NCBI RefSeq assembly: GCF_963675165.1
Contig: NC_087379.1
Location: 8,028,339-8,092,338, forward strand
Length of the DNA stretch: 64,000 bases
Direction: 5' to 3'
Origin: Halichondria panicea
Taxonomy: Eukaryota > Porifera > Demospongiae > Suberitida > Halichondriidae
A program made the translations under genes and the position numbers. The notes under the pieces were generated by a model, which ran no database searches, was not told the DNA's origin, and was given only the letters and a program-made list of their open reading frames with translations. This document shows, piece by piece, positions 15,349 through 58,905 of this stretch. The number at the start of each line of letters is the position of its first letter. The stretch's first letter is position 1.

Positions 15349-18300
15349 CCAACAGTAAGCTCCATTGTGTACTTTGTAACCTCTTGATTGCAGACCAGTG
15401 TGTGTGCGTACCTCAAGAACCAACAGTAAGCTCCATTGTGTACTTTAATTTGTAACCTCTTGATTTCAGACCTGTGTGTGTGCGTACCTCAAGAACCAAC
15501 AGTAAGCTCCATTGTGTACTTTGTAACCTCTTGATTTCAGACCTGTGTGTGTGCGTACCTCAAGAACCAACAGTAAGCTCCATTGTGTACTTTACCAGCA
15601 ATTATTGCTGAATCAGCTAAAACGCAGCCACGCCCACGATTTTTAATATGTTTTGTGTGTAAAAAATTAGTTTAGCTACTTATCTTTTTTAGTTCTAATT
15701 CCGGAGGTCTAAACCTTCCTTTAAGCTCAACATTTTTAGTGCAGTAGGTAGTTCAAAGGTTTGTGCAGACTATTCAATCGGGAGGAAGCATGGTACTCTA
15801 TGCAAAGTAAGTTATTAGCTTTTACATTTAAAATTAACAGCTAGAAAACTACGTTTTTTGCAAAATCTCACCTTTGGCTGAATGAACAGCTCCCTCCCGA
15901 TTGAATAGTCTGCACAAACCTTTGAACTACCTACTACACTAAAAATTTAGAGCTGAAAGGAAGGTTTAGACCTCCGGAATTAGAACTAAAAAAGATAAGT
16001 AGCTAAACTAATTTTTTACACACAAAACATATTAAAAATCGTGGGCGTGGCTGCGTTTTAGCTGATTCAGCAATAATTGCTGGTCCCAGTTGGTCCCAGT
16101 CCTTAACCTACCTGAGTGTGTGTGTGTGTGTGTGCGTACCTCAAGAACCAACAGTAAGCTCCATTGTGTACTGTGTAACCTCTTGATTTCAGACCAGTGT
16201 GTGTGCATACCTCAAGAACCAACAGTGAGCTCCATTGTGTACTTTGTAACCTCTTGATTTCAGACCAGTGTGTGTGCGTACCTCAAGAACCAACAGTAAG
16301 CTCCATTGTGTACTTTGTAACCTCTTGATTTCAGACCTGTATGTGTGCGTACCTCAAGAACCAACAGTAAGCTCCATTGTGTACTTTGTAACCTCTTGAT
16401 TTCAGCCCTGTGTGTGTGCGTACCTCAATAACCAACAGTAAGCTCCATTGTGTACTTTGTAACCTCTTGATTTCAGACCTGTGTGTGTGCGTACCTCAAG
16501 AACCAACAGTAAGTCCATTGTGTACTTTTTAACCTCTTAATTTCAGCCGTGTGTGTGCGTACCTCAAGAACCAACAGTAAGCTCCATTGTGTACTTTGTA
16601 ACCTCTTGATTTCAGCCCTGTGTGCATGTGTGTGCGTACCTCAAGAACCAACAGTAGGCTCCATTGTGTACTTTGTAACCTCTTGATTGCAGACCTGAGT
16701 GCGTGCGTACCTCAATAACCAACAGTAAGCTCCATTGTGTACTGTGTAACCTTTTGATTTCAGACCAGTGTGTGTGCGTACCTCAAGAACCAACAGTAAG
16801 CTCCATTGTGTACTTTGTAACCTCTTGATTTCAGCCCTGTGTGTGTGCGTACCTCAAGAACCAACAGTAAGCTCCATTGTGTACTTTGTAACCTCTTGAT
16901 TTCAGACCAGTGTGTGTGCGTACCTCAAGAACCAACAGTAAGCTCCATTGTGTACTTTGTAACCTCTTGATTGCAGACCTGTGTGTGTGCGTACCTCAAG
17001 AACCAACAGTAAGCTCCATTGTGTACTTTGTAACCTCTTGATTTCAGACCTGAGTGCGTGCGTACCTCAATAACCAACAGTAAGCTCCATTGTGTACTGT
17101 GTAACCTCTTGATTTCAGACCAGTGTGTGTGCGTACCTCAAGAACCAATAGTAAGCTCTATTGTGTACTTTGTAACCTCTTGATTTCAGACCAGTGTGTG
17201 TGCGTACCTCAAGCATCATCAGTAAGCTCCATTGTGTACTTTGTAACCTCTTGATTTCAGACCAGTGTGTGTGCGTACCTCAAGAACCAACAGTAAGCTC
17301 CATTGTGTACTTTGTAACCTCTTGATTTTAGACCAGTGTGTGTGCGTACCTCAAGAACCAACAGTAAGCTCCATTGTGTACTTTGTAACCTCTTGATTTC
17401 AGACCTGTGTGTGTGCGTACCTCAAGAACCAACAGTAAGCTCCATTGTGTACTTTGTAACCTCTTGATTTCAGACCAGTGTGTGTGCGTACCTCAAGAAC
17501 CAACAGTAAGCTCCATTGTGTACTTTGTAACCTCTTGATTTCAGCCCTGTGTGTGTGCATACCTCAAGAACCAACAGTAAGCTCCATTGTGTACTTTGTA
17601 ACCTCTTGATTTCAGACCAGTGTGTGTGCGTACCTCAAGAACCAACAGTAGGCTTCATTGTGTACTTTGTAACCTCTTGATTTCAGACCAGTGTGTGTGC
17701 GTACCTCAAGAACCAACAGTAAGCTCCATTGTGTACTGTGTAACCTCTTGATTTCAGACCTGTGTGTGTGCGTACCTCAAGAACCAATAGTAAGCTCTAT
17801 TGTGTACTTTGTAACCTCTTGATTTCAGACCAGTGTGTGTGCGTACCTCAAGCACCATCAGTAAGCTCCATTGTGTACTTTGTAACCTCTTGATTTCAGA
17901 CCAGTGTGTGTGCGTACCTCAAGAACCAACAGTAAGCTCCATTGTGTACTTTGTAACCTCTTGATTTTAGACCAGTGTGTGTGCGTACCTCAAGAACCAA
18001 CAGTAAGCTCCATTGTGTACTTTGTAACCTCTTGATTTCAGACCTGTGTGTGTGCGTACCTCAAGAACCAACAGTAAGCTCCATTGTGTACTTTGTAACC
18101 TCTTGATTTCAGCCCTGTGTGTGTGCATACCTCAAGAACCAACAGTAAGCTCCATTGTGTACTTTGTAACCTCTTGATTTCAGACCAGTGTGTGTGCGTA
18201 CCTCAAGAACCAACAGTAGGCTTCATTGTGTACTTTGTAACCTCTTGATTTCAGACCAGTGTGTGTGCGTACCTCAAGAACCAACAGTAAGCTCCATTGT

Positions 18301-18360
18301 GTACTTTGTAACCTCTTGATTTCAGACCAGTGTGTGTGCGTACCTCAAGAACCAAACAGT
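15261..18360 (+). repeat. 71-bp micro-exon/mini-intron tandem array
   Basis: Roughly 36-38 units of 71 bp. Each holds a 32-nt block, ACCAGTGTGTGTGCGTACCT plus CAAGAACCAACA, preceded by a splice-acceptor-like CTCTTGATTTCAG and followed by a donor-like GTAAGC. The remaining 39 nt have every part of a minimal intron: donor, a TGTAAC branch-point-like motif, pyrimidines and AG. Units vary by point changes such as CAATAACC for CAAGAACC. The array is interrupted by a foldback element at 15594-16083. Confidence 0.9.
15594..16083. mobile_element. Large foldback element with ~200-bp arms
   Basis: The left arm begins ACCAGCAATTATTGCTGAAT and the right arm ends in its reverse complement ATTCAGCAATAATTGCTGGT. 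The arms are near-perfect over about 200 bp around an ~85-bp centre. It has no ORF and sits inside the 71-bp array, so it inserted after the array formed. Consistent with a non-autonomous foldback or MITE element. Confidence 0.85.
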
Positions 18361-20570
18361 AAGCTACATTAATAGTTCTACATGTGCTGTGGAATACTCT
18401 GTCTCTTTTATTTCAGCCCTGTGTGTGTGCGTACCTCAATAACCAACAGTAAGCTCCATTGTGTACTTTGTAACCTCTTGATTTCAGACCAGTGTGTGTG
18501 CATACCTCAAGAACCAACAGTAAGCTCCATTAATAGTTCTACATGTGCTGTGGAATATTCTGTCTTATTGATTTCAGACCAGTGTGTGTGCGTACCTGAA
18601 GAACCTACAGTAAGCTACATTAATAGTTCTACATGTGCTGTGGAATATTCTGTCTCTTTGATTTCAGACCAGTGTGTGTGCGTACCTCAAGAACCAACAG
18701 TAAGCTACATTAATAGTTCTGCATGCGCTGTGGAATATTCTGTCTCTTTAATTTCAGACCAGGGCTCTAGGGTTAGGGTTAGGGTGTGTGCATACCTCAA
18801 GAACCAACAGTAAGCTCCATTAATAGTTCTACATGTGCTGTGGAATACTCTGTCTCTTTGATTTCAGACCAGTGTGTGTGCGTACCTCAAGAACCAACAG
18901 TAAGCTACATTAATAGTTCTACATGTGCTGTGGAATATTCTGTCTCTTTTATTTCAGACCAGTGTGTGTGCGTACCTCAAGAACCAACAGTAAGCTCCAT
19001 TAATAGTTCTTCATGTGCTGTGGAATATTCTGTCTCTTTGATTTCAGACCAGTGTGTGTGCGTACCTCAAGAACCAACAGTAAGCTACATTAATAGTTCT
19101 ACATGTGCTGTAGAATATTCTGTCTCTTTGATTTCAGACCAGTGTGTGTGCGTACCTCAAGAACCAACAGTAAGCTACATTAATAGTTCTACATGTGCTG
19201 TGGAATATTCTGTCTCTTTTATTTCAGACCAGTGTGTGTGCGTACCTCAAGAACCAACAGTAAGCCTCATTAATAGTTCTACATGTGCTGTAGAATATTC
19301 AGTCTCTTTGATTTCAGACCAGTGTGTGTGCGTACCTCAAGAACCAACAGTAAGCTACATTAATAGTTCTACATGTGCTGTGGAATATTCTGTCTCTTTT
19401 ATTTCAGACCAGTGTGTGTGCGTACCTCAAGAACCAACAGTAAGCCTCATTAATAGTTCTACATGTGCTGTAGAATATTCAGTCTCTTTGATTTCAGACC
19501 AGTGTGTGTGCGTACCTCAAGAACCAACAGTAAGCTACATTAATAGTTCTACATGTGCTGTGGAATATTCTGTCTCTTTTATTTCAGACCAGTGTGTGTG
19601 CGTACCTCAAGAACCAACAGTAAGCCTCATTAATAGTTCTACATGTGCTGTAGAATATTCAGTCTCTTTGATTTCAGACCAGTGTGTGTGCGTACCTCAA
19701 GAACCAACAGTAAGCTACATTAATAGTTCTTCATGTGCTGTAGAATATTCTGTCTCTTTGATTTCAGACCAGTGTGTGTGCGTACCTCAAGAACCAACAG
19801 TAAGCTCCATTAATAGTTCTACATGTGCTGTGGAATATTCTGTCTCTTTTATTTCAGACCAGTGTGTGTGCGTACCTCAAGAACCAACAGTAAGCTCCAT
19901 TAATAGTTCTTCATGTGCTGTGGAATATTTTGTCTCTTTGATTTCAGACCAGTGTGTGCGTACCTCAAGAACCAACAGTAAGCTACATTAATAGTTCTGC
20001 ATGTGCTGTAGAATATTCTGTCTCTTTGATTTCAGACCAGTGTGTGTGCGTACCTCAAGAACCAACAGTAAGCTCCATTAATAGTTCTTCATGTGCTGTG
20101 GAATATTCTGTCTCTTTGATTTCAGACCAGTGTGTGCGTACCTCAAGAACCAACAGTAAGCTACATTAATAGTTCTGCATGTGCTGTAGAATATTCTGTC
20201 TCTTTGATTTCAGACCAGTGTGTGTGCGTACCTCAAGAACCAACAGTAAGCTACATTAATATAGTTCTACATGTGCTGTGGAATATTCTGATTTCAGACC
20301 AGTGTGTGTGCGTACCTCAAGAACCAACAGTAAGCTACATGAATAGTTCTACATGTGCTGTGGAATATTCTGTCTCTTTGATTTCAGACCAGTGTGTGTG
20401 CGTACAAGAACCAACAGTAAGCTACATTAATAAATCTACATGTGCTGTAGAATATTCTGTCTCTTTGATTTCAGACCAGTGTGTGTGCGTACCTCAAGAA
20501 CCAACAGTAAGCTCCATTAATAGTTCTGCATGTGCTGTGAAATATTCTGATTTCAGACCAGTGTGTGTGT
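18361..20570 (+). repeat. 90-bp version of the micro-exon array
   Basis: About 24 units carry the same 32-nt block, the same GATTTCAG acceptor and the same GTAAGC donor, but the middle is replaced by a 58-nt intron-like segment containing AATAGTTCTACATGTGCTGT. Because 90 is divisible by three, long ORFs run through it (for example 18786-19991, unit containing QCVCVPQEPT); these are repeat artefacts rather than evidence of a protein. Some units are shortened or lose two bases. Confidence 0.88.
18773..18786 (+). repeat. Interstitial telomere-type repeat
   Basis: CTAGGGTTAGGGTTAGGGTG replaces the end of one 90-bp unit, giving about three tandem TTAGGG copies. The animal telomere repeat is TTAGGG. 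Confidence 0.75.
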
Positions 20571-22690: not shown

Positions 22691-22857
22691 GCACCACTTG
22701 TACATGTACACATACTAGAACTCAGCTAGCTAGCTAGCTCTTTGATCTATTGTATGGAGACCACGCCCCTTCTACTGTGGGTGGCAGTAGAAAGGCGTGG
22801 TCTTGATCTCGTGAGGGCAAACAAACAACAAATGGGCGTACCTGCTACCTGATAATA
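22691..22857. promoter_or_regulatory. Shared head-to-head promoter region
   Basis: Selenoprotein K (-) and the ankyrin/death-domain gene (+) start about 170-200 bp apart, facing away from each other. Between them, 22759-22802 is an inverted repeat: GACCACGCC, then TTCTACTG, a short loop, CAGTAGAA, GGCGTGGTC. The CACGCC/GGCGTG arms resemble GC/CACC-box sites. Bidirectional promoter activity is inferred from position only. Confidence 0.5.
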
Positions 22858-25800
22858 ATGGCCGACATACTCAGTGCTGCCAGGGCTGGTGACTTGAGTG
22901 CTTTGCGAGATGCTATCAAGAGGGGAGAGGATGTCAACAGTGTGAAGGTAAGCTGGTTTGCAGAGCTAAAGCTGTGAAAGTCTATTTTTGCTGTCATGCT
23001 ATAAATTTAATACCTACCCAATCAAAAGTTGATTTGGGCGCTGTAAACTACGCTCACTGCACACTCAGTTTGGGGCAAATGGTAAATTCCAAAAAATAAG
23101 TGTAACTATGATCACACAGATGTGTTGTCAGAAGTTATTATTATGCTCTCACTCTTGTAGGATGGGTGGACTCCACTCATGTCGGCAGCCAGGGGAGGGC
23201 ACACTGACTGTGTTATACAGCTACTCTCCTCAGGAGCAGTGGTGGACCTGGCTAACAAGGTGAGTATCTGATACTAAACTGATGGTCTATAGGAGTTATA
23301 ATTATACATGGACATTGCCTTAAAATCACCTCTATGCTGAATAATTGTTGACAAGCATTCCATGGAATTGATTGGGTTGACTATTATTTTGGTTTGTGTG
23401 GATTTTAATCTACCGTCACTCAACTACGAGCTAACTTGCTGAAAGGTTAGAGTTAGTGTTATGTACTTTTGTGTGTGTGGATGGATGACGTCAGATGCAA
23501 CCACTCTATTATAGTAAATATTGCCAATCCTTACTTTATTTGTAATTACAGCACCAACTCTGACTGAATTCCATTATTTAAGTCCTCCAACGGTTGCTGT
23601 AATTAAAAGACGTAATTATTTGTGATGTCAGGCTCAAGGCAGTCGGCTTTTCTTTTATTATGCACATGCATTTGATTTGTAGAGCTGCTGTAAAATACAG
23701 AGACGAAAAATCAAACCGTACAGTTGGTCCACTGCATACTGAAAGATTGCACTCAACACTAGAATAGCTGTGCGCTTAAGCGCCACCATAATATTTTTGA
23801 GGTTATAAAAGTTGATTTAGGCGCTGTAAACTACGCTCACTGCACACTCAGTTTGGGGCAAATGGTAAATTCCAAAAATAAGTGTAACTATGATCTATCA
23901 CACAGATGTGTTGTCAAAAGTTATTATTATGCTCTCACTCTTGTAGACTGGGTGGACTCCACTCATGAAGGCAGCCAGGGGAGGGCACACTGACTGTGTT
24001 ATACAGCTGCTCTCCTCAGGAGCAGTGGTGGACCTGGCTGACGAGGTGAGTATCTGATACTAAACTGATGGTCTATAGGAGTTATAATTATACATGGACA
24101 TTGCCTTAAAATCACCTCTATGCTGAATAATTGTTGACAAGCATTCCATGGAATTGATTGGGTTGACTATTATTTTGGTTTGTGTGGATTTTAATCTACC
24201 GTCACTCAACTACGAGCTAACTTGCTGAAAGGTTAGAGTTAGTGTTATGTACTTTTGTGTGTGTGGATGGATGACGTCAGATGCAACCACTCTATTATAG
24301 TAAATATTGCCAATCCTTACTTTATTTGTAATTACAGCACCAACTCTGACTGAATTCCATTATTTAAGTCCTCCAACGGTTGCTGTAATTAAAAGACGTA
24401 ATTATTTGTGATGTCAGGCTCAAGGCAGTCGGCTTTTCTTTTATTATGCACATGCATTTGATTTGTAGAGCTGCTGTAAAATACAGAGACGAAAAATCAA
24501 ACCGTACAGGTGGTCCACTGCATACTGAAAGATTGCACTCAACACTAGAATAGCTGTGCGCTTAAGCGCCACCATAATATTTTTGAGGTTATAAAAGTTG
24601 ATTTAGGCGCTGTAAACTACGCTCACTGCACACTCAGTTTGGGGCAAATGGTAAATTCCAAAAATAAGTGTAACTATGATCTATCACACAGATGTGTTGT
24701 CAGAAGTTATTATTATGCTCTCACTCTTGTAGACTGGGTTGACTCCACTCATGGTGGCAGCCAGGGGAGGGCACACTGACTGTGTTATACAGCTACTCTC
24801 CTCAGGAGCAGTGGTGGACCTGGCTAAAAAGGTGAGTATCTGATACTAAACTGATGGTCTATAGGAGTTATAATTATACATGGACATTGCCTTAAAATCA
24901 CCTCTATGCTGAATAATTGTTGACAAGCATTCCATGGAATTGATTGGGTTGACTATTATTTTGGTTTGTGTGGATTTTAATCTACCGTCACTCAACTACG
25001 AGCTAACTTGCTGAAAGGTTAGAGTTAGTGTTATGTACTTTTGTGTGTGTGGATGGATGACGTCAGATGCAACCACTCTATTATAGTAAATATTGCCAAT
25101 CCTTACTTTATTTGTAATTACAGCACCAACTCTGACTGAAGTCCATTATTTAAGTCCTCCAACGGTTGCTGTAATTAAAAGACGTAATTATTTGTGATGT
25201 CAGGCTCAAGGCAGTCGGCTTTTCTTTTATTATGCACATGCATTTGATATGTAGAGCTGCTGTAAAATACAGAGACGAAAAATCAAACCGTACAGTTGGT
25301 CCACTGCATACTGAAAGATTGCACTCAACACTAGAATAGCTGTGCGCTTAAGCGCCACCATAATATTTGTGAGGTTATAAAAGTTGATTTGGGCGCTGTA
25401 AACTACGCTCACTGCACACTCAGTTTGGGGCAAATGGTAAATTCCAAAAATAAGTGTAACTATGATCTATCACACAGATGTGTTGTCAAAAGTTATTATT
25501 ATGCTCTCACTCTTGTAGTATGGGCGGACTCCACTCTATTGGGCAGCCAGGGGAGGTCACACTGACATTGTTAGACAGCTGCTCTCCTCAGGAGCAGTGG
25601 TGGACCTGGCTGACAAGGTGAGTATCTGATACTAAACTGATGGTCTATAGGAGTTATAATTATACATGGACATTGCCTTAAAATCACCTCTATGCTGAAT
25701 AATTGTTGACAAGCATTCCATGGAATTGATTGGGTTGACTATTATTTTGGTTTGTGTGGATTTTAATCTACCGTCACTCAACTACGAGCTAACTTGCTGA

Positions 25801-28800
25801 AAGGTTAGAGTTAGTGTTATGTACTTTTGTGTGTGTGGATGGATGACGTCAGATGCAACCACTCTATTATAGTAAATATTGCCAATCCTTACTTTATTTG
25901 TAATTACAGCACCAACTCTGACTGAATTCCATTATTTAAGTCCTCCAACGGTTGCTGTAATTAAAAGACGTAATTATTTGTGATGTCAGGCTCAAGGCAG
26001 TCGGCTTTTCTTTTATTATGCACATGCATTTGATTTGTAGAGCTGCTGTAAAATACAGAGACGAAAAATCAAACCGTACAGTTGGTCCACTGCATACTGA
26101 AAGATTGCACTCAACACTAGAATAGCTGTGCGCTTAAGCGCCACCATAATATTTTTGAGGTTATAAAAGTTGATTTAGGCGCTGTAAACTACGCTCACTG
26201 CACACTCAGTTTGGGGCAAATGGTAAATTCCAAAAAATAAGTGTAACTATGATCACACAGATGTGTTGTCAAAAGTTACTGTATGCTCTCACTCTTGTAG
26301 GATGGGTGGACTCCACTCATGAGGGCAGCCAGTAGAGGGCACACTGACTGTGTTATACAGCTGCTCTCCTCAGGAGCAGTGGTGGACCTGGCTCACAAGG
26401 TGAGTATCTGATACTAAACTGATGGTCTATAGGAGTTATAATTATACATGGACATTGCCTTAAAATCACCTCTATGCTGAATAATTGTTGACAAGCATTC
26501 CATGGAATTGATTGGGTTGACTATTATTTTGGTTTGTGTGGATTTTAATCTACCGTCACTCAACTACGAGCTAACTTGCTGAAAGGTTAGAGTTAGTGTT
26601 ATGTACTTTTGTGTGTGTGGATGGATGACGTCAGATGCAACCACTCTATTATAGTAAATATTGCCAATCCTTACTTTATTTGTAATTACAGCACCAACTC
26701 TGACTGAATTCCATTATTTAAGTCCTCCAACGGTTGCTGTAATTAAAAGACGTAATTATTTGTGATGTCAGGCTCAAGGCAGTCGGCTTTTCTTTTATTA
26801 TGCACATGCATTTGATTTGTTGAGCTGCTGTAAAATACAGACACGAAAAATCAAACCGTACAGTTGGTCCACTGCATACTGAAAGATTGCACTCAACACT
26901 AGAATAGCTGTGCGCTTAAGCGCCACCATAATATTTTTGAGGTTATAAGAGTTGATTTAGGCGCTGTAAACTACGCTCACTGCACACTCAGTTTGGGGCA
27001 AATGGTAAATTCCAAAAATAAGTGTAACTATGATCTATCACACAGATGTGTTGTCAAAAGTTATTATTATGCTCTCACTCTTGTAGGATGGGCAGACTCC
27101 ACTCTTTTGGGCAGCCTATAATGGTCACACAGACTGTGTTAGACAGCTGCTCTCCTCAGGAGCAGTGGTGGACCTGGCTGACAAGGTGAGTATCTGATAC
27201 TAAACTGATGGTCTATAGGAGTTATAATTATACATGGACATTGCCTTAAAATCACCTCTATGCTGAATAATTGTTGACAAGCATTCCATGGAATTGATTG
27301 GGTTGACTATTATTTTGGTTTGTGTGGATTTTAATCTACCGTCACTCAACTACGAGCTAACTTGCTGAAAGGTTAGAGTTAGTGTTATGTACTTTTGTGT
27401 GTGTGGATGGATGACGTCAGATGCAACCACTCTATTATAGTAAATATTGCCAATCCTTACTTTATTTGTAATTACAGCACCAACTCTGACTGAATTCCAT
27501 TATTTAAGTCCTCCAACGGTTGCTGTAATTAAAAGACGTAATTATTTGTGATGTCAGGCTCAAGGCAGTCGGCTTTTCTTTTATTATGCACATGCATTTG
27601 ATTTGTAGAGCTGCTGTAAAATACAGAGACGAAAAATCAAACCGTACAGTTGGTCCACTGCATACTGAAAGATTGCACTCAACACTAGAATAGCTGTGCG
27701 CTTAAGCGCCACTATAATATTTTTGAGGTTATAAAAGTTGATTTAGGCGCTGTAAACTACGCTCACTGCACACTCAGTTTGGGGCAAATGGTAAATTCCA
27801 AAAATAAGTGTAACTATGATCTATCACACAGATGTGTTGTCAAAAGTTATTATTATGCTCTCACTCTTGTAGGATGGGGATACTCCACTCAATTCGGCAG
27901 CCAGGAGAGGTCACACTGACTGTGTTATACAGCTGCTCTCCTCAGGAGCAGTGGTGGACCTGGCTCACAAGGTGAGTATCTGATACTAAACTGATGGTCT
28001 ATAGGAGTTATAATTATACATGGACATTGCCTTAAAATCACCTCTATGCTGAATAATTGTTGACAAGCATTCCATGGAATTGATTGGGTTGACTATTATT
28101 TTGGTTTGTGTGGATTTTAATCTACCGTCACTCAACTACGAGCTAACTTGCTGAAAGGTTAGAGTTAGTGTTATGTACTTTTGTGTGTGTGGATGGATGA
28201 CGTCAGATGCAACCACTCTATTATAGTAAATATTGCCAATCCTTACTTTATTTGTAATTACAGCACCAACTCTGACTGAATTCCATTATTTAAGTCCTCC
28301 AACGGTTGCTGTAATTAAAAGACGTAATTATTTGTGATGTCAGGCTCAAGGCAGTCGGCTTTTCTTTTATTATGCACATGCATTTGATTTGTAGAGCTGC
28401 TGTAAAATACAGACACGAAAAATCAAACCGTACAGTTGGTCCACTGCATACTGAAAGATTGCACTCAACACTAGAATAGCTGTGCGCTTAAGCGCCACCA
28501 TAATATTTTTGAGGTTATAAGAGTTGATTTAGGCGCTGTAAACTACGCTCACTGCACACTCAGTTTGGGGCAAATGGTAAATTCCAAAAATAAGTGTAAC
28601 TATGATCTATCACACAGATGTGTTGTCAAAAGTTATTATTATGCTCTCACTCTTGTAGGATGGGCAGACTCCACTCTTTTGGGCAGCCTATAATGGTCAC
28701 ACAGACTGTGTTAGACAGCTGCTCTCCTCAGGAGCAGTGGTGGACCTGGCTGACAAGGTGAGTATCTGATACTAAACTGATGGTCTATAGGAGTTATAAT

Positions 28801-31800
28801 TATACATGGACATTGCCTTAAAATCACCTCTATGCTGAATAATTGTTGACAAGCATTCCATGGAATTGATTGGGTTGACTATTATTTTGGTTTGTGTGGA
28901 TTTTAATCTACCGTCACTCAACTACGAGCTAACTTGCTGAAAGGTTAGAGTTAGTGTTATGTACTTTTGTGTGTGTGGATGGATGACGTCAGATGCAACC
29001 ACTCTATTATAGTAAATATTGCCAATCCTTACTTTATTTGTAATTACAGCACCAACTCTGACTGAATTCCATTATTTAAGTCCTCCAACGGTTGCTGTAA
29101 TTAAAAGACGTAATTATTTGTGATGTCAGGCTCAAGGCAGTCGGCTTTTCTTTTATTATGCACATGCATTTGATTTGTAGAGCTGCTGTAAAATACAGAG
29201 ACGAAAAATCAAACCGTACAGTTGGTCCACTGCATACTGAAAGATTGCACTCAACACTAGAATAGCTGTGCGCTTAAGCGCCACCATAATATTTTTGAGG
29301 TTATAAAAGTTGATTTAGGCGCTGTAAACTACGCTCACTGCACACTCAGTTTGGGGCAAATGGTAAATTCCAAAAATAAGTGTAACTATGATCTATCACA
29401 CAGATGTGTTGTCAAAAGTTATTATTATGCTCTCACTCTTGTAGGATGGGGATACTCCACTCTATTGGGCAGCCAGGAGAGGTCACACAGACAGTGTTAG
29501 AGAGCTGCTCTCCTCAGGAGCCGTGGTGGACCTGGCTAACAAGGTGAGTATCTGATACTAAACTGATGGTCTATAGGAGTTATAATTATACATGGACATT
29601 GCCTTAAAATCACCTCTATGCTGAATAATTGTTGACAAGCATTCCATGGAATTGATTGGGTTGACTATTATTTTGGTTTGTGTGGATTTTAATCTACCGT
29701 CACTCAACTACGACCTAACTTGCTGAAAGGTTAGAGTTAGTGTTATGTACTTTTGTGTGTGTGGATGGATGACGTCAGATGCAACCACTCTATTATAGTA
29801 AATATTGCCAATCCTTACTTTATTTGTAATTACAGCACCAACTCTGACTGAATTCCATTATTTAAGTCCTCCAACGGTTGCTGTAATTAAAAGACGTAAT
29901 TATTTGTGATGTCAGGCTCAAGGCAGTCGGCTTTTCTTTTATTATGCACATGCATTTGATTTGTAGAGCTGCTGTAAAATACAGAGACGAAAAATCAAAC
30001 CCTACAGTTGGTCCACTGCATACTGAAAGATTGCACTCAACACTAGAATAGCTGTGCGCTTAAGCGCCACCATAATATTTTTGAGGTTATAAAAGTTGAT
30101 TTAGGCGCTGTAAACTACGCTCACTGCACACTCAGTTTGGGGCAAATGGTAAATTCCAAAAATAAGTGTAACTATGATCTATCACACAGATGTGTTGTCA
30201 AAAGTTATTATTATGCTCTCACTCTTGTAGAATGGGAGTACTCCACTCATGTGGGCAGCCAGGGGAGGTCACACTGATAGTGTTAGACAGCTGCTCTCCT
30301 CAGGAGCCGTGGTGGACCTGGCTGACAATGTGAGTATCTGATTGTGTTTATAGGCAGCATGTTTGTGACCATTAATTTTCATCATTTGGTAAATGAAATA
30401 TTTGCGCATGTACTTACAATTATGCACATTGCCAGTATTTTAATTGTTACGTTTTGCTTATAATTTTACGCTTATCTTGCTTATTTGTGTCTAAGTTGAC
30501 GAACTGGGCTACATACGTTTTCGTGGATATGTTGTACACAAATGAATAATTATGATACGTAGCACTTAAAAGGTTGTACAGTTTAATAACATAGCTGGAT
30601 AGTTGCATTTTTGCTCTTTGCCAATCCCTTTCCTTTACTTTATTTATGGTCTATCGCACAGATGTGTTCTCAAAAGTTACTGTATGCTCTCACTTTTGTA
30701 GGGTGTCTGATTTGCTAAATTTTCTGTGACGTACATACGTATATATACATGCTGTTGTAGGTGTACTGTCATCATTGTTAAGTACATGTACTGACAATCA
30801 CATGCATGACTGTACATTTCCTTAGTGCTTTAAACTGATGTCCCAGCCGGTTTTAATTTTTTATGTACTGTACGAGGTTGTTGTGCTTGTGTTCTCACTC
30901 TAGGATGTGGTTGGAAATGTAGAGCAGTGAATGTCTGTATTGTTCAGTTTACATTCATATTGTGTTGTCACTGTCTCCACTCTTGCAGGATGGGGACACT
31001 CCGCTCATGGAGGCAGCCCGCAGTGGACGGAAAGATACAGTAATACAGCTTCTCTCAGCAGGGGCTTCCCCTCTCTCCACTAATAATGTGAGCACATGTA
31101 CTTTATAGAGTACATAGTTGCGTAGTTATACTTAATGAACAATTTTACATGTACTGTACACCTATACCTCTTACAGTAGTTAATGACTGAACAGAGCTGT
31201 CATTTGTACCTTAACAGATAACTCTTAATGTGCTATTACCATTGCCAGTATCGCTCTGTCAGCAAAGTACATGTCATACACATTAGACCACTTTTACCTT
31301 TTACAATGTACGTCTCATCCCTTCATATGGTCATCATCACAGGATGGAGAGACTCCTCTGACGATGGCCAAGAAATCACCTGACTCTACCCCTTCAGTAA
31401 TAAAGCTGCTGGAGGAAGCTACTGAATCACATGTGAGTCCATACCTCAATAATGCACACACTGATCACAGAGGAGGTACAATTAGCCTCCTCTGCATTGA
31501 TCATAAGTGTTTTAGTTTAAGAGTTTGTTGTTCCTGAATTACAAATACTGTAACATTCATCAAAAACACATTAATCAACCTTTCACCAAGAGGAAGAGTA
31601 CGCAACTCCACTTAAAACAGTAGTAGGCGTTTCTTCAACCCTCCGTCACAACCACATGCTGTTGCATAAACTGTGAAATCAAATTTGCAATGAATAACAT
31701 AGTGAACAAAAATTAAAAACAGAGTAAAGACAACGGATTTAGAGCTTGTCAGAGGTCATGGTGGTGTAAACTTACTTCTCTAGAGTACCTCCCAGCCCTG

Positions 31801-34800
31801 AGTGATCGCTAGTAGATAGGAGAGCTAGAAATAGTTGAAATAACAACCCGAGTACGGTCAAAACGAAAATATTTGCGGGCGCAAAATCATAACGCGAAGT
31901 GTTTCAACCATTTACACAGGGAGGCCTGGTCCCCTTCCTTTTCGGTATAGCCTATTATTGTATATTGTTGTGGCTCATGTTAGTATCTGTGGTGATGATC
32001 AAGAGGTGTTGTTAGCATTCAAGCTATAGGTGTACATATTGTACAGTATCGATTAGTATTCTAGTAGACGTGCATTGCATGGATAATTGAAGCGTGGAAT
32101 ATGTATTATATTGTATTGCTCTTCACAGGACCATGATACAGTCAGAGAAGAGGTGTCTTCTAAATTAGGTATGTCAGCAAGAACAAGGCTATAACTATAA
32201 TATTGTGTGTGGAAGTGTTCTACAGTAGCGGTCAATATAAAGTACAGTGACGCTACTGTACCAAACACAGTTCTTGTCTCACTATAATCTGAACTAGCTT
32301 ACGTCAGCTGGTAATTTACCAAACTCAGACTCAGTTTTACTCATTCTGCAAAAGAATATAATTTACTTACTTAATAGGCATAATTATTCTATACTGCAGA
32401 TAATTCACCTGCCCCATATCTTACCATCATTATGTCTCCAATATTGAGTATGTAAGCTTAGCTGCATTGGTGTTATGGTAATTGTTCACGCCACTAATCA
32501 ATGTATAATTATAGGACCATCCGCTAAACGAGTCACTCTTCAAGAACTAGTAGAGCAATACAATCTGACTGACGAGCAACTCAACAGTGAAATAGATGAC
32601 CCTGATACTCCCAAATTGGCCTTATTTTTTGATGATGTGGAACTTTATTCGAGTGCAATGGGGCTAGCTATTGCTGAACAAGCCGATGTGAACCAATCAC
32701 GTGGAACTCAAGCAGCCATGATGAAGTGCTTGCAAATCTGGAAACAACATAATCCTTCACAAGCAACTTACAGAGCTCTACTGGATATCGCACTGAGATT
32801 GGGGAAAGGAGACACAGCTCATCAAATCTGCCAGCAACTGACCCAACGTAAGTACATGTACACATGTTACTACATGTCAGGTGATAACCACCCTCCACCT
32901 AAGCCCTCTACTAAGTAGCTATTCGACTCATATCCATAATTACCGGTATTAATATTGAAATCACAACAGAGAAGACAATCCCTATAGATTGTGACCATCA
33001 TGCATGCATGCTTGTACACATCCCTCCTAGACAGCACTGTTGAGTATAAGCGAGGTATAGGGTAATGTGTTTGTGTGTAGACTGTTAGAGCTGCTCAAGG
33101 ATCAATGAATGCAAGTAAGAGTTTCTATAAGCTTCTAGTCATGTTTTCGTATTTGTGGATTTGCAAAATAATGCTTTGTTCTCGAGTTATGCCTAGTTTT
33201 GCTTACTTGGAATGCCATTGCAGCCTTTTCTTTTCAGAAGAGTCCGTAGCAAAACTTGTTTACCGAGTGTTGCTACTCTACTTAGTATAGTTAGCTCTGC
33301 ACTAGAACGCTAGCTATTGGTAGCTGCAAGAGTGAGAAGAGAGCTGCAAGGCTCTGCTGATGGCAGCCATTAATTTTAGACTTGAATTTTTGGCATTGAT
33401 CGTTTTTAACAACAATCATCGTCGATCATTACCCACTATTTGAGTTTCCCTGTGATTGTGTATTCTGCGCAGCAAAATTAAAAATGTTTATCATGATAAT
33501 TATAATCAGCGTGTGTATAAAAGCTAGCTATTAGTAGTTTTATGCCGGTTATGTAGCTTTGGCACCTCCACCGAGGCATCAGCACCCGCGATGCTTTCAT
33601 TATTTATATCAATCTGTGTATAAAAGCTAGCTATTAGTAGCTTTATGTTATGTATCTTTGGCACCTCCACCGAGGCATCAGCACCCGCGATGCTTTCATT
33701 ATTTATATCAATCTGTGTATAAAAGCTAGCTATTAGTAGCTTTATGTTATGTAGCTTGGCACCTCCACCGAGGCATCAGCACCTGCGGTGCTTTCATTAT
33801 TTATATCAATCGGACCTCAATTTTGATACAAAAATGTGCCACAAAAATAATAATTATTTACCACTACTTTGGTTCAATAATATTACCGATTGTTTACTTT
33901 TTTACAGTCAATATTCAAAACCGAACCTACTTAAAAAAACTGGATGAGCTGATGGCCGACACAAGTGGCACTATAGAGCTACATTATCTCAAGACGCACT
34001 TTATTGGTCCCTCGGGTCTTGGCAAAACGACCACTCGACAGCGGCTTGTTGGATCCATCACTAACCTGTCTTTGCTGCCTGAAGATCAAAGGAAACGTTG
34101 CAGTACATTACTAGCCGAGTGTGAACAAGTATTGGCCTTTGTGGACAAATCTGGAACAAAGCTTGAATTCAAAGCATCTTCAAGTCTAGAGGAAGAAACA
34201 CAGTTTATCTTCTCTTACCTTATGTCCTGTGAACCTATTGAAGACAGCACTGTCAGCAATACTAGTACACCTAAGGAACAGCCCAAAAAAGAAACCACTA
34301 ACCCAAAGAAGCAAACTCAACTCAAGATCGATGAAGCTGCTACTGTACCCAAAGAAACGGTATCACCAACACCAGAACCACCGGAAAAGGTCGTGAAAGT
34401 GACCACTGTAGATGTTGGAAAGGTTGTCTCGAGACTCCGGAGTATTGTGGGTTCAGGAGAGTACACTAAAGAGCTGCTGAACAAAGTCCTACTCAATCTA
34501 GTCGATATAGGTGGGCAGCCTGGATTCGTGGAGATGTTTCCTTTTCTAAGCAAAGGCGCAGGGATTTTCCTAGTATTCTTTCGACTGGACAAAGACCTCG
34601 ATGACATGTGTCAAGTCTCCTACGAACGAGGAAAGGACAAGATCACACCGTACGATTCAACGTACACAAGCAGAGAAACGGTCTCTCAAATCCTGTCAGC
34701 TATCAGCCACCATACCAAGATTGACTCGGACATTGACAGAGAGCAGTGTAGTAAACTGGGCAATCTAGGCTCTGCTAAGCCTGTTGCTACCCTCATAGGT

Positions 34801-37800
34801 ACTTTCAAGGATGAACTGGCAATGCAAATCAAAGTCGATCTCCTGTACGAGAAATGTTGTGCCTCCACAAAAGCTGTCAGCAAAAGCGATAGTACCACTG
34901 CCAGCAAGAGCGATAGTACCACTGCCAGCAAGACCACTACCAGCAAGACCACTGCCAGCAAGAGCGATAGTACCACTGCCAGCAAGAGCGATAGTACCAC
35001 TGCCAGCAAAAGCGATAGTACTACAGCCAGCAAGAGCCATAGTACCACTGCCGACAAGAGCGATAGTACCACTACCAGCAAGAGCGATAGTACCACTGCC
35101 AGCAAGAGCCATAGTACCACTGCCGACAAGAGCGATAGTACCACTTCCAGCAAGAGCGATAGTACCACTTCCAGCAAGAGCGATAGTACCACTGCCAGCA
35201 AGACCACTACCAGCAAGAGCGATAGCACCACTGCCAGCAAGACCACTGCCAGCAAGAGCGATAGCACCACTGCCAGCAATACCACTACCAGCAAGAGCGA
35301 TAGTACCACTGCCAGCAAGAGTGATAGTACCACTGCCAGCAAGACCACTGCCAGCAAGAGCGAAAGCACCACTGCCGACAAGAGGGATGGCACCACTGCC
35401 GACAAGAGCGATGGTACCACTGCCAGCAAGAGCTATGGCACCACTGCCAGCAAGAGCGATAGTACCACTGACAGCGAGAGCGATGGCACCACTGCCAGCA
35501 AGAGCTATGGCACCACTGCCAGCAAGAGCGATGGCACCACTGCCAGCAAGAGCGATGGCACCACCGGCAACAAGAGCGATGGCAACACTGCCAGCAAGAG
35601 CAATGGCACCACTTCCAGCAAGAGCGATAGTACCACTGCCGACAAGAGCCTAAATGAACACGAACAAAAGAAAGCAATTCGGAATATTTTGACTCAACTG
35701 AAGAGTGATGAGCCTGCTAACGTCAGTGCAGAAGACATGGCTGCCATTGAGCAAACAGTCAGCCAACACCTCAACTCAGACACTTTCAAGAAAGATGTCC
35801 AAGACCGCTTAGAGCAAAAGTTGACAGAGAAAAACGAAGCTGTGAGCAAGATTACCAGCAAGTTTGAGAAATTACTTTCACACCCAAAAGACAAGAAGTT
35901 CATAGCAGTCGACAACTATGAAGGCACTGATTCTGATATGGAACCTCTTCGTGAACATCTTCATGGCATATTCAGTAGCTATTTCAAAGATGCCAAGCTT
36001 CGAATTCGCCCACAACAGCTTTTGTTGGGAGTTGTACTGAGAAAAGAGTATGACATTGTGTCTATGGAAGAATGCATTCGTATCGGTACCGAGGGGTTAA
36101 AGATGAGTGAGGAGGAAGTTCGATTCACCGTTTGGTACCTTGATCGATTTGTCGGAGCTTTGATATATCATCCAGAGATCAAGGATAAAGATGGTTGGTT
36201 TGGAAACTTTGTCATTTGCAACCCCCAAGTGGTATTCAACAGCCTCAGTGTTCTCGTTGTCAATCCGCTGCTGGAGCTCCATTCTGAAGAGGGCAATATT
36301 CAGTTTAACGATAATGAGAGAAAAAATTGGATACTCAAGGGTCAATTCTTACTGAAAACAATCACTCGATGCCATTCGGAGGAAAACCAGGGGGTGAAGA
36401 AAGACCAGTTGATTCCTGTTGAGAAGCTGCTCATACTGCTCGAGCATTCCCACCTTTTGGCCAAAATCACAACAGTGGAGGAAGACCATACCACAGAAGA
36501 AGTTGAAACGACATATTTCATCCCCGCTATTCTCAAGTGTGCATCTCGCGAGGAACTAACGAAACCACCCCCCACTGGCATTGATACACCCTCTCCAATC
36601 AAGATCACATTCAAACCCCAATACGTTCCCATTGGAGTATTTTGTGCCATGATCAGTGAATTGGTCTCAAGGGGGAGTACTGGAATTCTGGGCATGACTT
36701 GGAAACTTGCCACTGATACCTCAGTAAAGAGAAACCTCGTCTCCTTTCACATTGACGAATCTGCCAAGCATTTTGTTACCCTTATCGCTAACGTCGATTG
36801 CTATGAGATACGGATTATTCGACAGGACAGGGACCATACGATGCACGAGCTTTGTTCCTACGTCCTCTCAACCCTCCTGTTGGTGATGAAGGACATCAGT
36901 CCACTACTCACTCCAATCATTGCCTTCGACTGCTACTGTGGCAAACATGAAGATGGTTCCAAGCTTTGTCTCCTCACACCTGGAGCTGATCCCTGCTTTA
37001 AATGCACCAGCAAAGTCTCTCTGAGTCCTCACCAAGAATGCTGGTTCGCAGAAGTAAGTGAACTAACAGTTACAGTGTATGCACTATAAGAATTACCATT
37101 CCTGTGTACTAGCATTTAATTTTAGTATCAGATTATAACAGTTTTTTGTGTATTTAACTATTAATATTATGTGTGCAAGCATTCATTGTACATTGTTTTT
37201 TGTACAAAGATCAAAGGAAGAACTATGCAAATGCCATAGACTAGGATCTACAACTGTAGTAAACAGAAACTGTGCTCTATTATTCTGTGGTTGGAATTTT
37301 TGGTAGTTAGAGCACGGTTGGTGGTCAAAATAATTGATTTTAAGCCATAGAATTTTATAATAGCTACAACTGCTCCATGGTTGCAATGCGAGTACAGCTA
37401 AGTGATTCTATAAGCTTCTAGCAATGCTATCTTTCTAACAAAGGCTTTATTCTCGAGTAAAGGCTAGCTTTGCTTACCAGTACGTTGAAGGCCATTGCAG
37501 ACTCTCCAGAATCAGGAATAGCAAAATATTTTCGTAGAAAGTTGCTATTCTACATACTAGAGCCGATAGCTATTGGTAGCTGCAAGCAACTAAAAGTTAC
37601 AAACCAGTTAATGCACTGTTTTATGCTCGTGCTCTATGGATATTTTGGCCTCGCGGAAGTTCTCGAAGCATCATGTAGCACTTGGCTTCGCCTCGAGCTA
37701 TTGGCCAATAATATCCATAATATATAGAGCACTTGCAACCGTGCATTAACTAGTACGTATCCCTGTGTACAGGAAGTCAGTCTGAGAGAGGATGTTACTC

Positions 37801-39372
37801 TCAAGGCTCTGCCCTTTGCCTCTAGGCGAGAGTTGAGGGACAAGAGCCTCTCCTTCGAGTGGAGCAAAAGAAGTCCTGAAATTGATGGTGATGAACACAA
37901 GTTGGAATTCAAGGCTTCGTCACATGGTCACTTCAAGGGCTTTATCAGTTGTGAGATCTCCAAGAACCAGAAGCATTTCTTCACCGTGTACCACTGCCTC
38001 AAAGAGAGTGTTGGTGAGAATAATGTTAGAGCTTGTATGCAGATTATAATGTGTGTAATGTGTACATGTATAATACATTGTTACGTGTGTACTGTACATG
38101 TATAATCATCTATTTACAATTTCAATTGATACAGAGAACACCTCCAGCTCTGAAACTGATCAGCTGTTTGCAGATGTGAAGGAAGTGATCAAAGAGATAC
38201 GCTCTGACTGGTACAGCCTGGCTATAGAACTGGACATTGACTATGCAACTAGGAAGGTGAGACCTTAAGAATGTGTCCCTCCACCACCTTGAGTGTATTC
38301 TCCCAGTGTAGTCCTAATTATGTGTGTGCACTATTTAATTGACTGCTGCGGTTATTTAATGGTTGAATAGTGAGCATTTAAATAATACCTTTTTAGAATG
38401 AGGTGTCTATAGCAATGCTGACTCTGCATATTTGATGTGGTCTTGTATGAAGTACCAACCTATTTAACAGGTTACTATAGCAACGTAATGTTGAGGCTCT
38501 TACTAAGTATTTAATACTGTGTTTCACTGTGTGTACCGATACAGAGTCTTGAGAAGGACTATCGCTGGGTTGAGCCGTGCTTTGAGGCCATGCTGACACA
38601 CTGGGTGAAGCGCTCCTCTCCTCCCCCCTCCTGGTCTGCCCTTGTTAGAGCACTAGAGTCTCCCGCCATTGCTCGTGGAGACATTGCAACAACCATTAAG
38701 GTTGGCAACTATATTACAATTGAAAACTTTATTTTGTATAAATTGTTGCAGTACATGTTCTATCCTCTACGTTATAAACGCAAGTAGCTAATATTTGATT
38801 TCTCTTTACAGACAAAAGCTACCAGCGACATCTCTCCTGATATTTGTCATCTCACTCACGGTGTGCTGCCATAGCTTGTATTGTATAGTATTACTGTATC
38901 AACCGTAAAATAGCTAATGCTTGCTCTTCATATCTGTCGTTCTATATTCCATTCCATTCCGCATTCCTCCTTTTACAACATGCCTTTCCACTTCCTCCTA
39001 TTGTGTACTGCTATTAAATTTTGTTCACATTACATGTACTTAGGTCTCCAGTGTAACCATTTCCTCTCACCTGCAGGTAACGCTGGCTACAGTGTGCTGG
39101 TGAGCTTCAGTGAGAAGATAGTCCAGTCACTCTCTCATGAGCCCAAAGCCCTAGCTGTTAGTTTCCTGTCAGTCGGACTCATCACTGAGCGTGTGTTGCG
39201 AGAGACTAACGAGCTGAACGAGATCAAAGCTGACAAAGCCACTAGACTGTACACTGCCCTGCTGGGTGTAGTCAAACACCACCCCCACAAGTACCACGAG
39301 TTTGTCTCCACTCTCAGACTCAACCCACTACACACTGACTTGGTCACACTATTAGATAGCAAGTACAAGTAG
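22858..39372 (+). CDS. Ankyrin / death domain / Roc-like GTPase / COR-like / Ig-like / death / CARD-like protein
   Basis: 21 phase-consistent exons give 1883 aa. Exon starts: 22858, 23161, 23947, 24733, 25519, 26301, 27087, 27873, 28659, 29445, 30231, 30989, 31343, 32129, 32515, 33908, 37773, 38135, 38545, 38812, 39077. Residues 31-423 are ankyrin repeats, one 33-aa repeat per phase-0 exon. Residues ~465-545 form a death domain ([19 protein letters not shown]). A Roc-like GTPase follows with P-loop GPSGLGKTT (~581), G3 DIGGQPGF and a degenerate G4 (GTFKDE). A Ser/Thr/Lys repeat insert spans ~868-1128, then a COR-like region, an Ig-like segment (~1597-1677, W and paired Cys), a second death domain ([14 protein letters not shown]) and a C-terminal CARD-like helical domain. 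Roco-type proteins are GTP-regulated dimers, and death folds recruit signalling partners. A sensor or adaptor role in immunity or cell death is inferred. Confidence 0.85.
23161..30329 (+). repeat. 786-bp tandem array of ankyrin exons
   Basis: Ten units, each a 99-nt ankyrin exon plus an ~687-nt intron. Exon starts are spaced 786 bp (one spacing is 782). Introns look nearly identical, with only scattered substitutions. Exons vary mainly at ankyrin positions 1, 3, 7-8, 11-13, 17-20 and the last two. The exons at 27087 and 28659 are identical, and intron variants (GACACGAAAAATC, ATAAGAGTTG) recur two units apart, so a two-unit block was duplicated recently. Every exon starts and ends in phase 0, so any unit can be lost, gained or skipped without a frameshift. 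Confidence 0.93.
30989..31432 (+). other. Two divergent terminal ankyrin exons outside the array
   Basis: Exons 30989-31087 and 31343-31432 ([16 protein letters not shown] and [15 protein letters not shown]) have unrelated introns and are older than the amplified units. They cap the ankyrin stack. Confidence 0.85.
33105..33330. repeat. Dispersed repeat, copy 1
   Basis: Contains GTTTCTATAAGCTTCTAG, TTCTCGAGT, GCCATTGCAG and CTAGCTATTGGTAGCTGCAA. A diverged copy lies at 37405-37595. Both are in introns of the ankyrin/GTPase gene. Confidence 0.6.
33500..33805. repeat. ~100-bp tandem repeat, three copies
   Basis: Each copy carries TGTATAAAAGCTAGCTATTA, GGCACCTCCACCGAGGCATC and a GATGCTTTCATTATTTATAT end. 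Intronic. Confidence 0.85.
34870..35650 (+). repeat. Coding minisatellite (SKSDSTTA) in the GTPase gene
   Basis: 24-bp units, AGCAAGAGCGATAGTACCAC plus TGCC, encode SKSDSTTA with truncated 12-bp versions (SKTT). The repeat sits after the degenerate G4 motif and before the COR-like region and adds about 260 residues of hydrophilic, probably disordered linker. All units keep the frame. Reverse-strand ORFs here are artefacts. Confidence 0.9.
37405..37595. repeat. Dispersed repeat, copy 2
   Basis: Matches the element at 33105-33330, including GATTCTATAAGCTTCTAG and GCTATTGGTAGCTGCAAG. Confidence 0.6.
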
Positions 39373-56100: not shown

Positions 56101-56529
56101 AATATAAACAACAGTATACAATTACTGATCCACTAATCCAGTCTCAAAGAACATTAGAAGCTCTTAACAACCACAAAACAAAATCCATTACTGACATTTT
56201 TTCAATGAAACTGTATCCACCACAAAAATAGCACTGATATTGTTTCTACATGCCTTACAGTATTCATATGTGCTCCCAGAGGCATTACGCACGTGCACTC
56301 ACCCGTGGCTGCCTCAGGAACTTGATCACATAGTCGATGATGCTGTCAATGTACTCGAGATTGAGGCGATGGCTGTCGTCCTTTGTTGCCGGTTGTTGGA
56401 CCCACTCCCTGTATTGTCGGAACGTTATTCGTGTGGTGGATGGGTCTGCCCAGATACCAGAGCTCGGGCGCTCCTGGGGATTATACGGTTCACCAAACAT
56501 GGTCTTCTTGAGACTGGTCTTGCCTGAGG

Positions 56530-56596
<67 letters not shown>

Positions 56597-57124
56597 GTTG
56601 TGTGGGTAATGATCTAATAATATCAATTCCATGATTGAAAGTATAACCATGCAGCTATTGCCAATCAATAACAAACATAAAGCAATTGATATCAAATACT
56701 AAAGATCAAAAGATCAAAAGATATACACAGGCACCAGAACATGGCTAAATCATAACAGCTGCACACACACACCCCACACACACACCCCACACACACACCC
56801 CACACACACACACCACTTTCACACCACACACCCCACACACACACACCACTTTCACACCACACCCCACACACACACACCACTCCCACACCACACACACACA
56901 CACACCACACACACCCCCAAACCACACCACACACATGTATACCTGTTCCCCTGGCTCCAGTGAGGACAATGCGAGCCTTGGACTCGGTGTGACTGGCGTA
57001 CTTGAGTGCTCTGATGTAAGCACGGATCAGCTCCTTCTCTCTGCGGTTCATCTCCTTGATGGCACTATCGGCTGTAGAGGGTGTGAAATATTGTCATCCT
57101 TTGTTCTCTGATACAAAGATGGTT

Positions 57125-57157
<33 letters not shown>

Positions 57158-58138: not shown

Positions 58139-58905
58139 GACCACTAGCACTTGGTCTGTTGTTGTGGGAAATATAGTGTAATCTTATATAGCTAATCATT
58201 GTGTATGTCTATGTAGCTAGGGATTTGATAGGTCTGTACAGACACCTGTATCTGGTGTACTGTGGCCCTATACTGTGCAACTGTAGACTACTTAACATAT
58301 TATAGGGAAATTTGATACCACCAACTTGCCAAATAGTAGCCAAATTAAATAGTATTGAGCTAAAGCTAGCTACGGTTTATTAGAATTTGCCCATACACAC
58401 AAACGCATGCATCAGACCTCAAGTTAAGGCTATTGCTTACGTTTTTGCTCCACTTGAGTAGCTAGCTGGTTAGAAAACAAAGAGAGGTTGTTTCAGTCTC
58501 AACATATTAGGAGAGCAGATTGCAGAGATAGTGCGAGGGGGGAGGGGCTGATGGTCTCTCCACCTATTTAGCAGTTTACTTCCTAAAAAGCAATGCATTC
58601 CAGAAGTACAGAAGGACTGCAACAATTAATTAATATGGCTTTAGTATGTTATTAGGCAGCTAGCTATAGCTCTACACTGTCAGCAACTCGATGATCTCTG
58701 GCCTCGCTTCTAGCTCGGTAAGATAGCCCCCTTTTAAATATATGAGTGAACCTATAAACCAAGGCCTAGCCGGCCCATGCTGCACAGATGTCATGAAGTG
58801 TGCTGGATCATTGAACATAATTGATCACATGAATAGTTGCATGGGTCCTGTCTAGCTAGCTGTGTATCAGTGAGTTATTTTCTCTCTGCAGCATGCAAAT
58901 GAAGT
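58139..58905. promoter_or_regulatory. Divergent intergenic region, Roco / Kelch-like
   Basis: Separates the starts of the minus-strand Roco gene and the plus-strand Kelch-like gene. A strong acceptor-like TTTCTCTCTGCAG at 58879-58891 just before the Kelch-like ATG suggests a 5' UTR intron. No other motif confirmed. Confidence 0.45.

Follow-up and report, generated by a model that had tools for sequence, protein, structure and literature searches.

The closest known system to the locus described here is that of the fungal NWD/HNWD genes, together with other fungal NLRs that carry WD, ANK or TPR repeats of high internal conservation. In the accessible parts of the work on these genes (PMC1805685, PMC4986451), 69 WD units of the Podospora anserina genes het-d, het-e and het-r are described as forming 55 combinations at 4 sites, and fungal NLRs as having four selected codons in their WD repeats and five in their ANK repeats, the latter lying on the concave surface with one exception. 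The same parts give internally conserved repeats as rare in metazoa (0.8% among ANK, WD and TPR repeats) and propose a fungal-specific hypermutation (RIP) as a helper. Here we analyze a 64,000-nucleotide (nt) stretch of the sponge Halichondria panicea (G000:C3:8028339-8092338; the window), drawn from one assembly in which 131.5 Mb in 39 contigs were searched, and describe in it an array of ten ankyrin exons that differ at a restricted set of codons and are separated by nearly identical introns. We consider it probable that the array results from ectopic exchange and diversifying selection on a putative binding surface, in recognition-like genes that share a recombining exon pool.

Exon diversity and intron identity

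A sequence-only reading of this stretch had described ten tandem 786-bp units, each with one 33-residue ankyrin repeat and an intron of ~687 bp. Our exon scan recovered ten exons of exactly 99 nt, each encoding one such repeat between AG and GT, and the 786-bp spacing held for eight of the nine intervals, the ninth being 782 bp with a 683-bp intron. The first exon, the single one scanned against Pfam, matched Ank PF00023 (E-value 5.3e-9; 36.3 bits vs a cut-off of 21.1). The reading had also called the introns nearly identical and the exon differences mostly amino acid changes, and both descriptions were borne out: aligned over 688 columns, the nine introns (683-687 bp) have 6 columns with gaps and 14 with substitutions, two of the latter next to gaps in the 683-bp intron, whereas 29 of the 99 exon columns are variable and just five of these are synonymous (third bases of codons 13, 15, 16, 21 and 26). 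The residue pairs that it listed for repeat positions 7-8 agree exactly in all ten exons. Among the other positions that it named as variable, 11 and 12 are so, but position 13 is always Gly in the window, with synonymous variation only, and position 18, within its block 17-20, is invariant in the window although variable in the wider family. In the window gene the mean intron p-distance is 0.0049, and the overall exon ratio of nonsynonymous (pN) to synonymous (pS) differences is 1.74; pN is 0.522 at codons 1, 3, 7, 8, 11 and 12 vs 0.000 in 21 framework codons. Exons 6 and 8 have the same sequence and the introns preceding them have two single-nucleotide polymorphisms in common, which points to a recent two-unit duplication.

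With the first intron as query, 142 matches were found in the genome; the full-length ones all lie on the window's contig and, with one exception, within 7.47-8.25 Mb of C3. Twenty 10-kb tiles around intron matches, which span part of this cluster, and the window yielded 89 exon candidates in a scan that required AG/GT borders and no stop codon, so that broken exons are uncounted. We kept the 84 candidates with at least 22 of 33 consensus matches, and the five that were dropped are C-terminal cap-type exons. The family so defined comprises 15 array genes, all on the same contig and each with 2-10 recovered exons, and its 84 array-type exons include 77 distinct DNA and 75 distinct protein sequences.

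Across the 84 exons, the six hypervariable codons (1, 3, 7, 8, 11 and 12) encode 9, 11, 9, 10, 13 and 9 residues, respectively, and a second set of six (17-20, 32 and 33) encodes 3-6 residues each. Most of the remaining codons are nearly frozen, many at synonymous sites too: all 84 exons have the same triplet at codons 4, 22, 23, 24, 25 and 31, and 83 of them do at codon 28, while synonymous variation is present at codons 13, 15, 16, 21 and 26, including a common GCA/GCC split at codon 26. Although their first two bases vary, codon 1 ends in T in all 84 exons and codon 8 in G in 81 of them. For 28 units in eight genes with close introns on both sides, the intron mean p-distance was 0.0069 and exon pS 0.084, and pN was 0.515 at the hypervariable codons, 0.216 at the next six and 0.013 in the framework. 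When individual columns of 56 exons and 42 introns were compared at a threshold of nucleotide diversity (pi) > 0.1, all 12 first and second bases of the hypervariable codons and 9 of 12 in the next six codons exceeded it, as did 4 of 16 framework fourfold sites and 8 of 687 intron columns (12 of 12 vs 8 of 687, Fisher p = 5e-21). By comparison, pN in the GTPase-like parts of five of the genes was 0.008-0.040 (pN/pS 0.17-0.95). By these counts of pN, pS and pi, diversifying selection on specific ankyrin codons within homogenised introns, as the sequence-only reading had proposed, is well supported.

The homogeneity of the introns extends across genes. Units are separated by 69 intervals, of which 49, measuring 650-720 bp, were aligned; intron diversity was computed on 42 close ones and gave a mean pi of 0.0075; the most diverse 18-nt window reached 0.051 vs 0.434 at the six hypervariable codons, and single-base pi was at most 0.05 in the first 40 positions and at most 0.09 in the last 20, indicating little leak from the exons. 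Six byte-identical copies of one 687-bp intron are spread over five genes, at ~7.480-8.058 Mb (~578 kb) and on both strands, and the five carriers include two GTPase-type and two ZU5-type genes; a second byte-identical pair (671 bp) lies inside one gene. None of 32 comparisons between exons beside byte-identical introns gave identical exons, the median difference being 14 nt and 8 residues. Recent whole-gene duplication was rejected as the sole cause because genes whose C-terminal modules differ share byte-identical introns. Roughly half of the intron sequence is probably a transposable-element fragment, with ten dispersed copies elsewhere in the genome that match it at 78-88% identity (C1, C3:5.08 Mb, C5, C10, C11, C15). 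Constraint on the intron was judged an unlikely cause of its identity, since this fragment is 12-22% diverged elsewhere and no Rfam family reached its gathering score in window positions 22800-32500.

Reassortment, selection and competing explanations

The variable codons within the 99 nt are close to linkage equilibrium. Among the 77 distinct exons, 448 pairs of common variable sites from different codons were compared and 360 of them showed all four gametes, with a mean association (Cramer V2) of 0.03-0.07 vs a permuted mean of 0.027 (null computed on every third site). Ten of 15 pairs of third-base sites had four gametes, and codons 21 and 26, which are 15 nt apart, showed all four combinations and an r2 of 0.01. 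Residues with three or more possible codons used one codon per position in 355 of 366 cases, and by this codon purity the residues look descended from shared alleles. In a toy model that subjects 84 units to conversion and mutation, run with or without a rare-base advantage at variable codons (one seed per setting, equilibrium unchecked), variable-site pi without selection was 0.005-0.018 and intron pi 0.003-0.007; exchange with rare-variant advantage gave a variable-site pi of 0.23-0.43, an intron pi of 0.002-0.015 and a mean r2 of 0.01-0.05. The sequence-only reading had offered, as its second option, a process that varies exons while copying introns; this is needed only in part, as exchange and rare-variant advantage produce most of the pattern in the model without an exon mutator.

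The explanation that we favour is the following. Exon-plus-intron units, or pieces of them, have been copied from unit to unit and from gene to gene, over distances of up to ~578 kb and regardless of strand or C-terminal module, which has left the introns nearly or wholly identical. Against this background, the first and second bases of six turn and first-helix codons, and to a lesser degree of six more, remain highly diverse, while most neighbouring codons stay homogeneous, many of their synonymous sites included; the simplest cause would be negative frequency-dependent, diversifying selection that favours novel and rare binding surfaces. Within the 99-nt exon, short-tract conversion or crossing-over could then recombine a limited codon set. 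Spliced between cap-like repeats, the phase-0 exons (2-10 per gene) would form a solenoid with a bespoke concave surface, which, joined to a GTPase-like or ZU5-like output module, might sense non-self inside the cell, be it a microbe, a symbiont or allogeneic tissue. The variable positions were placed on the fold by knowledge of the ankyrin consensus and by the fungal ANK study rather than by a computed structure.

Control arrays were taken from G000:C12:1.04-2.05 Mb (L001-L006), a region of many giant intronless ankyrin frames (up to 4555 residues open) with motif matches ~102 residues apart. A motif covering positions 1-6 served to pick the control set, which comes from six loci (L005 and L006 overlapping) and holds 49 units, 37 of them distinct. 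These arrays show hardly any variation at positions 7 and 8 (entropy 0.18 and 0.36 bits vs 1.86 and 2.83 in the array family) and vary across the rest of the repeat, where the array family is frozen.

Several observations weigh against exchange with diversifying selection as a full account. Positions 11, 12 and 17 of the C12 arrays have entropies of 2.23, 2.59 and 1.98 bits vs 2.91, 2.57 and 1.22 in the array family. The control is thus mixed for hypervariability as a general trait of this genome's ankyrin arrays, a candidate that we did not retain, as the trait is absent at C12 positions 7-8 though present at 11, 12 and 17; the hallmark of the family is the sharp split between variable and frozen codons and not variability at 11 and 12 as such. 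The pairwise counts are non-independent, and the evidence for selection consists of counts, not of a likelihood test. Mean pi at exon fourfold sites is 0.107, carried by four of 16 sites, and exceeds the 0.007-0.037 of the toy model, an excess that is unexplained. Codons 17-18 vary among small or hydrophobic residues, and from the ankyrin consensus we presume that these positions may be partly buried. Five of the 15 third-base site pairs have only three gametes. The 84 units carry 71 distinct six-residue signatures vs 83.5 under free assortment, a shortfall due in part to recent duplicates. Finally, units from different genes differ slightly more than those of one gene do (4.54 vs 4.35 of 6, p = 0.012), which gives no sign of selection for diversity inside one solenoid.

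Alternative use of the exons as splicing cassettes, singly or in subsets for different isoforms as in Dscam, is compatible with exchange and selection, although we think it unlikely. Each of the ten exons has 99 nt in phase 0, and any subset of them therefore keeps the frame, but each encodes one stacking repeat between cap-like repeats, which fits constitutive inclusion.

A dedicated process could also mutate the variable codons, or rewrite exons from a template, in germline or soma, with introns that are merely young. The extreme contrast over few bases would suit such targeting, as would the third bases of codons 1 (NNT) and 8 (NNG) noted above and a pN at hypervariable codons ~75-fold above intron distance. 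However, codon purity together with near linkage equilibrium indicates reassorted shared alleles rather than fresh random mutation, and exchange with selection goes most of the way in the toy model, so that we regard targeted diversification as improbable. Codon purity likewise speaks against random rewriting of the kind performed by a diversity-generating retroelement (no search for a template, reverse transcriptase or enzyme was made).

If, instead, sequence divergence blocked conversion of the exons while introns homogenised, old exons would have been passively spared with no selection for diversity. Exon pS is ~12 times the intron distance, by which the exon lineages seem older than the introns, and pS between GTPase paralogs (0.010-0.097) covers a similar range. 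Passive sparing is nevertheless hard to credit: 21 of 24 first and second bases of variable codons exceed a pi of 0.1 vs 4 of 16 framework fourfold sites (p = 1.3e-4), seven codons (4, 22-25, 28 and 31) are the same triplet in all or all but one of the exons, and pN is 4.7-fold above pS at the six hypervariable codons.

A bolder version, in which the binding-surface codons of ~270 ankyrin exon cassettes (an upper bound) would be actively scrambled by programmed micro-conversion within each 99-nt exon to yield individual-specific, perhaps somatically varied recognition proteins carrying either kind of output module, forming a natural DARPin-like adaptive repertoire, strikes us as decidedly improbable. 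Relaxed constraint, by which surface positions merely tolerate variation without positive selection, is very improbable: several of the variable positions are solvent-exposed in ankyrin folds, and C12 arrays are about as variable or more so at positions 11, 12 and 17, but relaxation predicts a pN no higher than neutral, whereas the observed 0.515 exceeds both exon pS (0.084) and intron distance (0.0069), and C12 positions 7 and 8 are nearly fixed in a set picked on positions 1-6.

Extent of the family, its modules and neighbouring features

A framework pattern with one mismatch allowed matched 273 places genome-wide, which are pattern matches and not confirmed exons, and none when reversed. 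Among the first 100 places listed, which end within C3 and so carry no information on later contigs, 99 lie on C3 and one on C1, and 61 fall outside the analyzed arrays; these 61 vary at the same codons as the arrays and show 35 distinct combinations at codons 7, 8, 11, 12 and 13 (picked by eye). Near relatives were also found on C6, C8 and C16 by protein search. Two exon sequences are common to different genes and three are repeated inside one gene. At G000:C3:8265499-8265851 (L048), three family units have 77-bp introns in place of ~687 bp, so that exons of this family can occur with more than one type of intron.

The coordinates of the array and of the features around it are given in the table. 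A copy or relative of the N-terminal exon is present at all 15 array genes, that of the window included (tblastn). Among the genes whose downstream module is resolved in the fetched DNA, six have a GTPase-like module after the array and five a ZU5-like one. Relatives of the GTPase-like open reading frame (ORF) of the window, which carries what we take to be P-loop and DIGGQ motifs, are 88-98% identical at five other array genes (one cut by a tile end). The sequence-only reading had spoken of a death-domain GTPase. The GTPase label is weak, as the Pfam Roc match (E-value 0.0095, 16.6 bits) lies below the cut-off of 27. The GTPase-like part shares 29% identity over 80 residues with the COR-A-bearing ORF of the same window. 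Pfam gave no COR match in the array gene and no NACHT or NB-ARC match among the window ORFs tested, and a single-sequence structure model of the ORF (mean pLDDT 36.9) gave nothing usable. The death domain was not upheld: the small domain at 39061..39366 has no Pfam death match up to an E-value of 10, and its single-sequence AlphaFold model is all-helical but of low confidence (mean pLDDT 55.5). Searches of PDB sequences with the GTPase-like ORF and the helical domain returned weak matches only, none of them relevant for the latter. For the ZU5-type module, the one ORF scanned scored 21.0 bits vs a cut-off of 21 (E-value 4e-4), a borderline match, and its relatives occur at five genes including its own. 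One GTPase-like relative (L047, G000:C3:8236695-8237909) has an in-frame stop in the aligned stretch and may be a pseudogene.

Array and associated features of the window (positions from its first nucleotide)
Feature	Position	Strand	Remarks
N-terminal exon (ATG, half ankyrin-like cap), 90 nt, phase 0	22858..22947	+	read from the sequence; predicted gene structure
Ten 99-nt phase-0 ankyrin exons (33 residues each)	23161..30329	+	exon scan; hypervariable codons 1, 3, 7, 8, 11, 12; moderately variable codons 17-20, 32, 33
Array exons 1-5	23161-23259, 23947-24045, 24733-24831, 25519-25617, 26301-26399	+	AG/GT flanks on each
Array exons 6-10	27087-27185, 27873-27971, 28659-28757, 29445-29543, 30231-30329	+	AG/GT flanks on each
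First of nine introns, 687 bp	23260..23946	+	same sequence, byte for byte, as intron 8 (28758-29444) and as a single intron in four further genes each
Dispersed-repeat part of intron (~positions 282-603)	23541..23862	+	present in each array intron
Diverged C-terminal ankyrin exon (cap-like), 99 nt, phase 0	30989..31087	+	four other genes have relatives at 66-72% identity
Last ankyrin-like exon, 90 nt, phase 0	31343..31432	+	relatives in 11 of 14 other array genes
Possible short linker exon, 40 nt	32129..32168	+	suggested by AG/GT borders and frame
ORF with P-loop GTPase-like (Roc-like) part, low-complexity insert and C-terminal part	33823..37089	+	likely output module of the window gene
Low-complexity Lys/Ser/Asp/Thr repeat	34874-35649	+	between GTPase-like and C-terminal parts of ORF 33823..37089
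Domain of unassigned family	39061..39366	+	relatives in four of five ZU5-type genes (67-88% identical); putative part of the array gene

Elsewhere in the window, positions 53142-58150 of the minus strand hold a COR-A match (PF16095, 53142-55625) and an ankyrin-like ORF identified by eye (57623-58150), likely another ankyrin and Roc-COR gene. BTB-BACK and kelch ORFs at 58906-61399 make up a KLHL-like gene, in keeping with an animal genome. Two adjoining minisatellites at 16126-20549 (71 bp x 31.6 and 90 bp x 22.9) include a 401-residue repetitive ORF, and a 24-bp repeat of 20.7 copies at 8854-9349 is open in several frames on both strands.

Comparison with known repeat-based systems

Like the Dscam exon arrays, in the part of the description available to us (PMC3236188), the array consists of tandem duplicated exons; unlike them, it combines intron homogeneity with codon-level reassortment across genes and shows no sign of mutually exclusive use. 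A looser likeness is to systems in which homogeneous repeats vary at contact residues or repeat cassettes are assembled modularly, such as PRDM9-type zinc-finger minisatellites and the lamprey VLR. The array family differs from these in its fold and in having separate exons as units. Its variable positions also resemble the randomised face of DARPins. With these designed proteins, as portrayed in the sections at hand of PMC8229355, the family has in common an invariant ankyrin framework, cap repeats and variable positions on the concave face. It is, however, natural and genomic, and has extra variable positions at 7, 8 and 17-20.

The likeness to the fungal NWD/HNWD genes, so far as the available parts of the fungal papers describe them, is closer. 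Both show exchange of repeats within and between genes (here byte-identical introns in five genes), codon-specific diversifying selection on an interaction face (here by counts, with the surface location taken from the consensus), many combinations (here 71 at 6 sites in 84 units) and one repeat pool common to genes with different other domains. They differ in that each repeat of the sponge array is its own 99-nt exon, mostly with an intron of ~687 bp that serves as a neutral control per repeat, and in that the modules are GTPase-like and ZU5-like, the window ORFs tested giving no NACHT or NB-ARC match. Thus, the array family works like the fungal NWD/HNWD genes, judging from this comparison, and is not a demonstrated member of that group. 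Among the titles and beginnings of abstracts listed for open-access PubMed Central, we found no animal ankyrin-exon case of this kind.

Because most repeats carry a long intron with a transposon-like fragment, the effects of homogenising exchange can be told apart from those of diversifying selection at single bases, a distinction that intronless arrays do not permit, and the array makes the origin of large recognition repertoires in animals without antibodies directly testable. The family looks like a naturally evolved library of recognition proteins. If it is a true non-self receptor family, it would show the fungal HNWD strategy at work in an animal and be the natural equivalent of a DARPin library.

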